A stretch of DNA of 64,000 bases from Candidatus Nitrosoglobus terrae (GTDB lineage: Bacteria; Pseudomonadota; Gammaproteobacteria; Nitrosococcales; Nitrosococcaceae). The DNA lies in assembly GCF_002356115.1 (NCBI RefSeq), contig NZ_AP014836.1:310001-374000 (forward strand), in the 5' to 3' direction. The notes below the pieces were generated by a model, which searched no databases, was not told the origin of the DNA, and was given only the letters and a program-made list of their open reading frames with translations. Positions 17,974 to 22,929 of the stretch are shown here, one piece after another. The position numbers and the translations under genes were made by a program. Numbering within the stretch: the stretch's first letter is position 1; each line of letters starts with the position of its first letter.

Positions 17974-18650
17974 ATGACATTGAAAGTCAGAGTCAAGGAT
18001 AAACACCAACCAATCCTTGAGCCTATAGCTTTTGAAGTCAATCAGGTTTGGAACGCGGAATGATTATCCATGTCTGCCACTGCTCAAGAAGTGATTACCA
18101 TTTTATTTTACCGGATACTACTTTCAGGTGTGGGATTCCTACGACTTATCAAACTACAAGTTCAGATCTGGATCTTTCTCTCAAAATATCCGTGATTGAT
18201 AGTATTTCAATATGGTGGTTGAGGCCTCTATAAACTCTTCGCTTGCTACTGGACAAATTGGTATTGATTTAGGATATTGCAGTAATGGCGATAAATAAGC
18301 GCAAGGATGCTATTCACAAATTCGCCACCAAAATAGTTAAAAATAATACTTTAATTGTTATCGGCAATGTCAGCAGTTCTCACCTTATGAAAACTAAAAT
18401 AGCGTAGTCTGTTTTGGATTCAGGTTGGTTATGCAGCTTGATTATAAATTGAAAGTGATGCAAGCCGCGTTTGTAGAGGTCAACGAAGCCTATACTACTC
18501 AGTCCTGTCCGCGCTGTGGTTGTATTAACGACGGTAATAGGGCTCGGAATACTCGGAATAAGAGAATGCGCATGCGCTGAGTGTGGCGCGCATCACGACA
18601 GAGACCTTGCCGCTATGAACATTCTTACGGTGGGAAGGATGTCAACTTAG
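17974..18650 (+). pseudogene. TnpB (OrfB, IS200/IS605) pseudogene
   Basis: The start MTLKVRVKDKHQPILEP and NQVWNAE matches the TnpB N-terminus but is followed by an in-frame stop, after which LSMSATAQEV continues. Later pieces in several frames are IGIDLGYCSNG (RuvC-I region), IVIGNVSSSHLMKTKIA and FVEVNEAYTTQSCPRCGC with CAECGAHHDRDLAAMNIL. The last two form the zinc ribbon and RuvC-III end. At least two stops and one or more frameshifts break it, and a central part is missing. TnpB is an RNA-guided nuclease of IS200/IS605 elements. No tnpA is visible. Confidence 0.85.
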
Positions 18651-18717
18651 CTTGAGTCTAGTAACCTGTATAATGACCTCGCTCTGACCAAGCTAATTTC
18701 CTAGCTGTAAATATAAA

Positions 18718-18741: not shown

Positions 18742-18922
18742 CTTAGAGTTTATAATTTTTTTTGCTAATCTTTATTAGATAGCTAGATTAGTGTTTACTT
18801 TAAGGGGTTTTGTAGGTTTTTGCTAATTAATAATTAATAAATTAAGAGGCAATATTTATAGTAATTATTAAGTTAAACTATGAAACTTCAGGGGAGTGCA
18901 TTAGAATGTTCTCCTGCTTTTG

Positions 18923-18951
18923 TTGACAAAGAATTATTTAAAATATATGTT
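18923..18951 (+). promoter_or_regulatory. norS promoter with candidate NsrR box
   Basis: A perfect -35 box TTGACA (18923-18928) is followed after 17 bp by TATGTT (18946-18951) as a -10. Across the spacer and -10, positions 18929-18951 form an 11-1-11 inverted repeat. Its halves, AAGAATTATTT and AAATATATGTT, each match the known NsrR consensus half site (AAGATGYATTT and complement) at 9 of 11 bases. NsrR bound there would block RNA polymerase until nitric oxide damages its iron-sulfur cluster. nsrR itself lies 3.5 kb downstream. Translation starts at 18998, about 40 nt after the expected transcription start. Confidence 0.65.
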
Positions 18952-18997
18952 TTAAGTTCTATACTTTTAGTAAGTCTATGAGAAAAGGATAAATACA

Positions 18998-19525
18998 ATG
19001 CAGTCAGCCGCGTGGTATATAACACTCATTAGCGTAATATCACTCATTGGGGTGTTTTATTTTGTTATCAGCAACTCTAAGGTAAAGGAGGAATATTCAT
19101 CTTTTAGTAAAGCATGGTATGGGGTTCGTGGTAAGTGGTTTATTTTCCTAATAATTTTATGGGTTACATTACTCATAATAACGTTAAAGCCATTTCCTCT
19201 TCCTTCCCAGACTGAAAATTATAGCGATAAGGGCGATCAGATAATCGATGTTAGTGGCCATCAGTGGTACTGGGTCATGAGTTCTGATACCGTTGTTATA
19301 GATAAGCCTGTAGTGTTTCAAGTAACTACCGGCGATGTCAACCATGGCTTTGGTGTCTATAATGAGAAGCTGGAGCTAGTTGCTCAAGTTCAAGCGATGC
19401 CAGGTTACACTAATAAATTGGTTTATACATTTACTCAACCGGGTAAATACCGCATTCTCTGCTTGGAGTATTGCGGAGTAGCACACCATGGCATGATAGG
19501 CGAGTTGAACGTAAAAGAGAGCTAA
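18998..19525 (+). CDS. norS: NorS, CuA-bearing subunit of heme-copper NO reductase
   Basis: The 175-residue protein resembles cytochrome c oxidase subunit II. It has two N-terminal membrane helices (about 6-25 and 45-64) and a periplasmic cupredoxin domain with a full CuA site: His116, Cys155, Glu157, Cys159, His163 and Met166 (CLEYCGVAHHGM). It would accept electrons from a cytochrome c and pass them to NorY. In ammonia oxidisers the norSY-senC-orf1 cluster encodes sNOR, which reduces nitric oxide to nitrous oxide. It is the first gene of that cluster here. Oxidase function cannot be fully excluded from this subunit alone. Confidence 0.85.
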   Translation: MQSAAWYITLISVISLIGVFYFVISNSKVKEEYSSFSKAWYGVRGKWFIFLIILWVTLLIITLKPFPLPSQTENYSDKGDQIIDVSGHQWYWVMSSDTVVIDKPVVFQVTTGDVNHGFGVYNEKLELVAQVQAMPGYTNKLVYTFTQPGKYRILCLEYCGVAHHGMIGELNVKES

Positions 19526-19561: not shown

Positions 19562-21052
19562 ATGAGTAAAGCAACAGTGGACAAAATTCATTATAGTGAC
19601 GCAGAGAATCGGGGTGCTTTGATCGCAGTAAAAGCTCATTTAATTACTGGTTTTCTGGTTTTTTTATTAATGATGTTAGGGGGTGCCGTGATGCGCGCCG
19701 CTCAGGGTGCCCTAATGCCATCGGTAGGAGCAGATTTGTTCTACCAGATTATGACAGTACATGGAGTTGGTGTAGTTGGTACATCAGCGATTGCTTCAAC
19801 AGGCATACTATGGTATTTCCTACGTCAATATGTACAATTAAGCACTAAGATATTTTGGCTTAATTTTTTTATTTTCCTGACTGGCGTAGTCATAATTTTA
19901 GGATCTATTTTCCTTGGAGGATATGCGGGCGCTTGGACTTTTCTATATCCCTTACCAGGTATTTCTCTTGGTGTTTGGTCTACAGGGGCTGCTGCGGGAT
20001 TTCTAATTGGCTTGCTCCTTATTGGTACTGGATTTCTAATTCTCTATTTGGACTGGGGTCGTGCTATTCTTTCTCGTTATGGAAGTTTTGGGCAAGCATT
20101 AGGATTACCACAGTTATTTGGTAAGGAGCCTTTAAACCCTTATCATCCAACAACCGTAGTCGTTGGGACTATGGTACTTATCGTTGATTTCCTTGGCATT
20201 GCCGCTGGGGCTGTAGCGTTGGTGATAATGCTAATAAATCTTTACAACCCAGAATTCAAGCCTGATGCGTTACTAGTCAAAAATCTAATTTATTTCTTTG
20301 GCCACGTAATTATCAATGCAGCTATGTACGCTTCGGTATCAGCAGTTTATGAGCTATTACCCCAGTACACGGGTCGACCCTATAAAACTTCAAAGGTCTT
20401 CTATGCTGCTTGGTTTGCTATCGTTTTTATGGTGATGGCAGTTTACCCGCATCATCTATATATGGATTTCCCCTTGCCTAAATGGATAATGATCGTTGGT
20501 CAAGTACTTTCCTATGGTAGTGGTATTCCGTTGATGGTAGTTACGGGTTATGGTGCTTTAATGCTTGTGTACCGTTCTGGGATTCAATGGAATACTTCTG
20601 CTAAATTATTGATACTTTCTATGTTTGGCTGGGCAGCAGGGGGTATCCCAGCAGTTCTTGATTCCATGATAACGTTCAACAAGGTTTTACATAATACCTT
20701 ATGGGTACCTGGCCATTTCCATTTTTATCTACTGCTAGGTTTATTACCCATGATTTTAGGATTTACTCTCTATCTCTTTAACATCCCGCAGGAAAAAGAG
20801 CCTCCTTTAGTTGAAAAACTTGGTTTTTATAGCTATGCAGGAGGTGCTTTACTGTTATCCCTAGTTTTCTTGAATAGTGGATCTAATGGTATTCCTCGTC
20901 GTTGGGCTGTTCATTTGGATGAGTGGATTCCCTATGCTCAGCTGGGTGCTGTAGCTGCAGTATTAGTAGTATTTGGATTTTTACTATTTACTGTACGCGT
21001 TCTTATCGTACTACCAAAAGCAGCAGAACCTGTACCTGCAGCTGTTCATTAA
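19562..21052 (+). CDS. norY: NorY, catalytic heme-copper subunit of NO reductase
   Basis: The 496-residue inner-membrane protein, with about twelve helices, belongs to the heme-copper oxidase superfamily. Probable metal ligands are all present: His67 and His387 for the low-spin heme, His385 for the high-spin heme, and His248, His297 and His298 for CuB. In oxygen reductases of the A type the CuB histidine is followed at +4 by a crosslinked tyrosine (HPEVY). Here that position is Asn252 (HVIIN), as expected for sNOR rather than an aa3 oxidase. It follows norS by 36 bp. A strong stem-loop lies after its stop. Confidence 0.85.
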   Translation: MSKATVDKIHYSDAENRGALIAVKAHLITGFLVFLLMMLGGAVMRAAQGALMPSVGADLFYQIMTVHGVGVVGTSAIASTGILWYFLRQYVQLSTKIFWLNFFIFLTGVVIILGSIFLGGYAGAWTFLYPLPGISLGVWSTGAAAGFLIGLLLIGTGFLILYLDWGRAILSRYGSFGQALGLPQLFGKEPLNPYHPTTVVVGTMVLIVDFLGIAAGAVALVIMLINLYNPEFKPDALLVKNLIYFFGHVIINAAMYASVSAVYELLPQYTGRPYKTSKVFYAAWFAIVFMVMAVYPHHLYMDFPLPKWIMIVGQVLSYGSGIPLMVVTGYGALMLVYRSGIQWNTSAKLLILSMFGWAAGGIPAVLDSMITFNKVLHNTLWVPGHFHFYLLLGLLPMILGFTLYLFNIPQEKEPPLVEKLGFYSYAGGALLLSLVFLNSGSNGIPRRWAVHLDEWIPYAQLGAVAAVLVVFGFLLFTVRVLIVLPKAAEPVPAAVH

Positions 21053-21232: not shown

Positions 21233-21859
21233 ATGAAGACCTTGTTTTTGAGTACTTTCTTAGGAATATCAGGTTTAATGATATTGTGGGTAGGCACGGA
21301 TGGTGGCCGTGCCTTCACTGCAGAGACGGCACGCCGTTTAGAAGTGCAGGAACGTCCAAAGCTAGTTCCAATTTGGCACCTAGAGGATCAAAATTCTAAA
21401 ATATTGACATTAAGCGATTGGGCCAATCATTATACAGTAGTAGACTTTATTTATACTAGCTGCACCAGTGCCTGCTTAGTGTTAGGTAGTGAATTGCAAA
21501 GCCTTCAGAAAAAATTTGAATTGGCGCTTAATGATAACAAACTGCGTCTATTAAGTATTAGCTTTGATCCAGAGCATGATACTCCAGAGCGGCTTCGTAC
21601 CCATCTCTCCCATTTCTCAGGTGATGGTGAACATTGGGTTGCTGCACGCCCAACTAGTCTCGCTGAAAGGAAAGAAATTCTAGATTTTTTTAAGGTGACA
21701 GTAATACCGGATAAAATGGGGGGTTATACACACTCTGCAGGCTATCATGTTATTAATCCCCATGGCCAGCTAGTGGCCATTTTTGGAGTAGAGGAGTACT
21801 CCATGCTACAAGATTACTTATCTCTAGCGCTTTCAAAGGAGGGGATTGATGAAAGTTAA
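21233..21859 (+). CDS. senC: SenC/Sco family copper chaperone
   Basis: The 208-residue protein has an N-terminal membrane anchor or signal segment (about 4-22) and a thioredoxin-like Sco domain. The copper-binding cysteines are in YTSCTSAC, and the distal histidine is in the GGYTHSAGYH region. ISFDPEHDTPERLRTH is the typical Sco motif. It delivers copper to the CuA or CuB site of heme-copper enzymes, here most likely NorSY. The coding end overlaps the next gene by 14 bp. The gene lies 180 bp after norY, past the stem-loop. Confidence 0.9.
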   Translation: MKTLFLSTFLGISGLMILWVGTDGGRAFTAETARRLEVQERPKLVPIWHLEDQNSKILTLSDWANHYTVVDFIYTSCTSACLVLGSELQSLQKKFELALNDNKLRLLSISFDPEHDTPERLRTHLSHFSGDGEHWVAARPTSLAERKEILDFFKVTVIPDKMGGYTHSAGYHVINPHGQLVAIFGVEEYSMLQDYLSLALSKEGIDES

Positions 21860-22418
21860 ATACCAGCGGTATTTTCCTTCTTTTGCTTGGGGACTATTAG
21901 CTCTACCACCTTTAAGGCACATTTTAGAGTCCAGTATGGTAACCCATATGCTAATACAGCTACCGGCCTTAGCGTTTGTGGGATGGTGGTTTGGTCAAGG
22001 TTTTTCCAAAGATCTTACGCGTAAAATCGCACTTTGGAATCAGTGGGGTATTACCGGCATGGTTTTAGTAGTTATAACTATGTTTTATTGGATGTTACCT
22101 CGAGCATTGGATGCTGCTATTTCAGAGCCAGTTTTTGAAGCTGCTAAGTTTTTTGTTATCCCGTTATTTATTGGTACTGCATTTAATCTAAGCTGGTCTT
22201 CGCTTCCTCCTATAGCCCAAGGCGTATTGAAATTAGAGTTCTGGGCTACATTTATGCGTCTGGGCTGGCTTTATATAGTACTTCCAGATCGTTTGTGCGC
22301 AAACTATTTATTAGGGGATCAAAGGATCCTCGGTTATATCTTATTAATTTTAGGTAGTGTTTGGGCAGTTAGTTGGGCTCTCAAGATTTTATTTGGAATA
22401 AGATGGCGTTGGGCATAA
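21846..22418 (+). CDS. membrane protein of the norSY-senC cluster (orf1)
   Basis: The 190-residue protein is largely hydrophobic, with about five predicted helices (about 15-28, 36-50, 70-88, 100-115 and 155-180). It resembles the orf1 product that accompanies norSY-senC in ammonia oxidisers and some cytochrome-oxidase-associated membrane proteins. It contains several His residues (HILESSMVTHML) that could bind metal. The start overlaps the senC end, so translation is coupled. No function is established. A role in assembling NorSY is inferred from position. Confidence 0.7.
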   Translation: MMKVKYQRYFPSFAWGLLALPPLRHILESSMVTHMLIQLPALAFVGWWFGQGFSKDLTRKIALWNQWGITGMVLVVITMFYWMLPRALDAAISEPVFEAAKFFVIPLFIGTAFNLSWSSLPPIAQGVLKLEFWATFMRLGWLYIVLPDRLCANYLLGDQRILGYILLILGSVWAVSWALKILFGIRWRWA

Positions 22419-22467: not shown

Positions 22468-22929
22468 CTAGCTGTTCGCAGCTCGTGATGGAAACCACGC
22501 AATCCGCAGGGAAGAATAGAGATCATCTTTATTTTTAGTGATGTCAGCTAGCGTATAACGATCTAATACTGCAATAAATGCACGTTGGGCTTCCCAGAAA
22601 ACGTTTTTTAATTGACAACAAGACGCAGTAGGACAGGTATTATGGCTATTATTAAAACACTCAGCAAGTTCAAACCGTCCTTCTGTATTGCGTACTACCT
22701 CTCCTAGGTTAATTTTCTCTGGCGGCAACGCTAAGCATATACCCCCTCCTTTACCACGAGTGGTGCTAATATACTTTAGATTTGCTAGATTATGCACTAT
22801 CTTTCCAAGATGGTTTCGAGAGATACCATAACTATTTGCTATCTCATTAATTGTAGTGAGTTGTTTATCATGAAGGCTAACGTAAATTAAAACTCGGAGT
22901 GAATAGTCTGTATATTGTGTAAGCTGCAT
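22468..22929 (-). CDS. nsrR: NsrR, Rrf2-family nitric oxide-sensing repressor
   Basis: The 153-residue protein is an Rrf2-type regulator with an N-terminal winged helix (MQLTQYTDYSLRVLIYVSLH, ITEIANSYG-like INEIANSYGISRNHLGKIVHNL). Iron-sulfur cysteines are Cys91, Cys99 and Cys104/105. The sequence ECFNNSHNTCPTASC matches NsrR better than IscR. NsrR represses nitrosative-stress genes until nitric oxide reacts with its cluster. It converges on the nor cluster. A candidate NsrR box overlaps the norS promoter at 18929-18951, consistent with direct control. Confidence 0.9.
   Translation of the reverse strand: MQLTQYTDYSLRVLIYVSLHDKQLTTINEIANSYGISRNHLGKIVHNLANLKYISTTRGKGGGICLALPPEKINLGEVVRNTEGRFELAECFNNSHNTCPTASCCQLKNVFWEAQRAFIAVLDRYTLADITKNKDDLYSSLRIAWFPSRAANS

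Follow-up and report, generated by a model that had tools for sequence, protein, structure and literature searches.

Does the NsrR-type regulator encoded beside the norSY-senC-orf1 cluster of Candidatus Nitrosoglobus terrae control that cluster, and if so, through which DNA? An earlier note on the 64,000-nucleotide stretch analysed here (the window) had pointed to an inverted repeat in the norS promoter as the operator. We followed this proposal from the genes themselves to the promoter, to related genomes, and to norS loci of distant bacteria.

The norSY-senC-orf1 cluster and its neighboring regulator

The cluster begins with norS (18998-19525, + strand), which encodes a COX2-type subunit (Pfam PF00116) and has orthologues in all six genomes of the family. 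It continues on the same strand with norY (19562-21052), encoding the COX1-type catalytic subunit (PF00115), senC (21233-21859; SCO1/SenC, PF02630), and orf1 (21846-22418), which has no family match and was assigned by position, the cluster order being as in PMC4940428. Both the norS-norY-senC-orf1 order described in a passage of that paper and the COX2, COX1, and SCO1/SenC domains, by which we recognize an sNOR, are present here. According to a passage of PMC6967387, the main role of sNOR may be that of a high-affinity O2 oxidase, its NO reductase activity is debated, and the N. europaea NorY is without the NorB glutamates; that NorSY removes NO is an assumption of the earlier note. For N. 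oceani, a section of PMC3772326 describes norS (Noc2971), norY, senC, and a nearby NsrR gene (Noc2967) in the same order, with norS following ammonium and hydroxylamine, a behavior that can be read as a response either to NO or to energy.

Just past the cluster, where it had been noted previously, nsrR follows orf1 on the opposite strand (22468-22929, - strand). The best NCBIfam model for its product is the NsrR equivalog NF008240, at 134.9 bits against a cut-off of 182, so that the threshold is not reached, and the RirA model is a near second at 128.1 bits. Streptomyces coelicolor NsrR (5n07, 7b0c) is the best solved relative. Asp8, Cys91, Cys99, and Cys105 align with the cluster ligands of this protein (ScNsrR) and are invariant in the six family genomes, each of which has a close nsrR orthologue. 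The Rrf2 domain, Asp8, and three cysteine ligands that we look for in an NsrR protein are thus all in place, and we call the product a predicted NsrR from its ligands, gene context, and motif rather than from the NF008240 threshold.

Anatomy of the norS promoter

The candidate operator (18929-18951, + strand) is an 11-1-11 inverted repeat, AAGAATTATTT-A-AAATATATGTT, whose arms share 8 of 11 positions and whose composition is AT-rich (21 of 23 bases). Upstream is a -35 hexamer, TTGACA (18923-18928, +), that is identical in four Nitrosococcus-like genomes; the conserved -10 hexamer, TATGTT (18946-18951, +), lies within the right half of the operator. Because the spacing between the hexamers is 17 bp, the repeat exactly spans the spacer and the -10, as the earlier note had described and as can be read directly from the sequence. 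Placed in this way within the promoter of an NO-related operon, it is well suited to repression. A probable norS ribosome-binding site, AAAGGA (18984-18989, +), follows in a segment (18984-19000) that is 85% conserved.

The two hexamers match the promoter consensus at 10 of 12 positions. By itself such a match means little in this AT-rich window, which holds 16 promoter-like matches where shuffles lead one to expect 15.4; a scan with the exact promoter consensus yielded nothing useful.

Immediately 5' of the -35 is a terminator-like hairpin with a T-rich tail (18889-18916), which probably insulates the norS operon. Further upstream, the neighborhood is unlike that of the relatives and includes an apparent remnant of a TnpB-like gene, a broken IS605-type zinc-ribbon sequence (18380-18660); the conserved promoter block starts directly after this rearranged region.

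Rarity of the norS site

Compared with AAGATGTATTT, each half of the repeat matches at 9 of 11 bases, the count that had been claimed for it. Against AANATGYATTT the halves match at 9 and 10 of 11 (3 mismatches of 23), and against AANATGCATTT at 8 and 9. The site accordingly has the two inverted 11-bp AAnATGyATTT half-sites, spaced by 1 bp, of an NsrR site. With up to three mismatches allowed, AANATGYATTTNAAATRCATNTT matches nowhere else in the window (0.05 matches expected), and the whole 2.02-Mb genome has five such matches, this one included; the reversed pattern, used as a control, gave two there. Both halves lack the G of the ATG core (position 6), which is T on the left and A on the right, and the left half lacks the T of ATG as well. 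This G is a common but not universal feature of NsrR half-sites: it was present in 16 of the 22 half-sites used to train our matrix, and it is replaced in Neisseria NsrR motifs according to a passage of PMC1274295.

That matrix, a symmetric one, was trained on eleven predicted NsrR-like sites in the family genomes, with the norS sites left out. The training sites came from multicopper-oxidase clusters (Nitrosococcus-like genomes), from the NorB-type NO reductase and nsrR (Nitrosacidococcus-like genome), and from nnrS (the Nitrosoglobus genome itself). The norS site scored 23.0, slightly under the training range of 24.7-30.1, versus 10.5 for the runner-up in the window. Simulated DNA modeled on the norS intergenic region (3 Mb under each of two Markov orders) and on the window (6 Mb) produced no equal score; the score is thus well clear of the background level that, as the earlier note had stated, would speak against an operator. 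Ranking across the genome came from the consensus scans and from a sequence-only model. The model placed the site third among distinct places, but because it scored only 150 of 1422 genome candidates and left out the coxB site described below, we did not use its ranks strictly.

Conservation in the family

In the four Nitrosococcus-like genomes the norS promoter reads TTGACAAAGAACTATATCAAATATAWGTTTT. Identity between these and Nitrosoglobus is 84% over the promoter block (18919-18955) and 85% over the operator, and drops to 43-52% in the sequence flanking the block on either side. In the Nitrosacidococcus-like genome, the sixth member, the promoter has diverged, and its best site, AAGGTGTATTATAAATATACATT, lies at the same distance from norS (-63). 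An NsrR-like site therefore occupies the same position before norS in six of six family genomes, although these are related and do not represent six independent events. The scores vary: two of the Nitrosococcus-like norS sites reach only 13.7, and the Nitrosoglobus site scores highest of the six.

The conservation bears on the chief alternative, which we regard as unlikely though the best of the rivals: that the block is conserved simply as a sigma-70 core promoter, its spacer being AT-rich and its likeness to an NsrR site fortuitous, and that norS is controlled in some other way by energy status or ammonium. The perfect and invariant -35, the AT-richness of the repeat, and the responsiveness of N. 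oceani norS to ammonium and hydroxylamine noted above would all suit it. Against it, the spacer alone is 82% identical, as well conserved as the entire operator and much better than the flanks, which a sigma-70 promoter alone would not readily explain; the simulated DNA that gave no equal score had the same AT-rich composition; and NsrR-like sites recur at nsrR-linked norS loci far outside the family.

NsrR-like sites at distant norS loci

This recurrence was seen among 80 norS loci from other bacteria, 12 with an nsrR-like gene inside the fetched flanks and 68 without. We called a locus significant if, in the 300 bp preceding norS, its top-scoring site had P < 0.01 versus simulated DNA of local composition. 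By this measure 8 of the 12 nsrR-linked loci have a significant NsrR-like site before norS, versus 6 of the 68 others (Fisher P = 4e-5), a comparison that counts loci, some of them related, and in which some of the 68 may have nsrR beyond the stretch that was fetched. In the eight linked loci, the norS site, at -38 to -80, is the highest-scoring of the entire 7-12.5 kb locus, and the linked sites include ones in GC-rich loci. Since the matrix was trained on other genes of another family, this result is independent evidence, and it points to regular targeting of norSY by NsrR.

Other NsrR-like sites and the predicted regulon

The best NsrR consensus site of the Nitrosoglobus genome (G000:C1:782345-782367) lies directly before a DUF59 (Fe-S assembly) gene, which is followed by nnrS, long predicted to be an NsrR target (a section of PMC1274295). 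NsrR-like sites also precede the nnrS operon in three Nitrosococcus-like genomes. Two further consensus matches in Nitrosoglobus were set aside as probably due to chance: one (G000:C1:1974195) overlaps the beginning of an rplY-like ORF, and the other (G000:C1 942109) is about 340 bp upstream of the next ORF.

The aa3 oxidase gene coxB has another NsrR-like palindrome (G000:C1:42877-42899; score 23.0) about 60 bp upstream, with similar sites at coxB in three of four relatives checked, and this oxidase is possibly an NsrR-controlled terminal oxidase. In the Nitrosacidococcus-like genome, the best site (G002:C1:865327-865349) precedes an Mrp/ApbC-type Fe-S carrier gene, hinting that Fe-S repair may fall within the NsrR regulon.

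Two Nitrosococcus-like genomes have three tandem NsrR-like sites ahead of a multicopper-oxidase cluster (G003:C2:1065758-1065848 and G004:C1:3781482-3781572). We dropped the label nirK for these targets and call them multicopper-oxidase genes, the G003 cluster being below the TIGR02376 cut-off; a passage of PMC4103548 cites an earlier report of no NsrR motif at N. oceani nirK, and NirK was not found in the Nitrosoglobus genome. The Nitrosacidococcus-like genome has an NsrR-like site before a NorB-type gene, and in 'Ca. Nitrosacidococcus tergens' norB expression is maximal at pH 4.0 and NO accumulates below pH 6 (PMC13170337); this fits NO-dependent derepression without proving it. Taken together, norSY, nnrS, and the other targets would form a coherent NsrR regulon.

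In Nitrosoglobus nsrR itself is apparently not a member: no NsrR site was found before it, the best matrix score there being -0.5, and autoregulation is not supported. The site before nsrR is weak in Nitrosococcus-like genomes and strong in the Nitrosacidococcus-like one, the latter being itself a training site. Of the closed NO-sensing circuit that had been proposed, the operator at norS is well supported, whereas NO removal by NorSY is a presumption.

Proposed control of norSY

Based on its rarity, its conservation in the family, its recurrence at distant nsrR-linked norS loci, and the ligand residues of the adjacent regulator, we consider it very probable that the repeat at 18929-18951 is the NsrR operator of the norSY-senC-orf1 operon, as the earlier note had read it. 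By analogy with characterized NsrR proteins in binding, cluster chemistry, repression, and NO induction, a dimer of holo-NsrR, its Fe-S cluster intact, would sit on the spacer and -10 and block RNA polymerase; NO would destroy the cluster, NsrR would leave, and norSY-senC-orf1 would be transcribed. Because the site is degenerate, with the position-6 G missing from both halves, repression may be incomplete, as would be fitting in an ammonia oxidizer, for which NO is an obligate intermediate.

The degeneracy could also mean that an ancestral operator has decayed here, NsrR acting mainly at nnrS and norS being nearly constitutive. The loss of the ATG core from both halves fits such decay, as do the Nitrosococcus-like norS sites, which score below those at the multicopper-oxidase clusters of the same genomes, but with the Nitrosoglobus site the strongest of the family's norS sites, and with most of its departures from consensus common to the Nitrosococcus-like genomes rather than random, we think this quite improbable. 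Least probable is another Rrf2- or FNR-type regulator on the repeat: the genome does encode a second, distant Rrf2 protein (24% identity), but the 11-1-11 AAnATGyATTT geometry is that of NsrR, of the two Rrf2 proteins it is the NsrR-like one whose gene is linked, and it is nsrR linkage that predicts a site in distant loci.

An NsrR operator at norSY, as predicted here, would be regulatory evidence for an NO-related role of sNOR, an enzyme whose function (NO versus O2) is debated, and it names an NsrR regulon (norSY, nnrS, and possibly coxB) in gammaproteobacterial ammonia oxidizers, a group whose release of NO and N2O is relevant to climate. It is about an even call whether the wider reading holds, in which norSY belongs to the NsrR regulon widely among distant bacteria, the debated sNOR/B-type oxidase is physiologically an NO-response enzyme, and the regulon of this family may extend to the aa3 operon (coxB) and to Fe-S cluster genes.

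Comparison with known NsrR systems

In Nitrosomonas europaea, NsrR controls the ncgABC-nirK operon. Nitrosoglobus is likewise an ammonia oxidizer with NsrR beside its target, and multicopper-oxidase genes are among the targets in its family; in N. europaea, however, nsrR is instead linked to nirK, norSY being at another locus (a passage of PMC4940428), whereas here nsrR follows norSY. The regulator resembles that of Streptomyces coelicolor as an Rrf2 protein with Asp8 and three cysteines in register, but ScNsrR controls three genes (according to a passage of PMC4432287), and the target here is norSY. In the passages of the literature on NsrR and sNOR that were covered, there was no proposal that NsrR controls norSY; a prior prediction is possible in subscription journals, which were outside the search.

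The NsrR regulons of gamma- and betaproteobacteria, as described in a section of PMC1274295, have the motif gATGyAT-N5-ATrCATc and include hmp, nnrS, norB, nirK, and hcp. The Nitrosoglobus norS motif is AT-richer and is without the core G in both halves, and its target is a heme-copper sNOR operon, norSY, that the NsrR section of that paper does not name. In the geometry of the motif, the proximity of nsrR, the involvement of the targets in NO metabolism, and the presence of nnrS as a co-target, the system predicted here is like those regulons.
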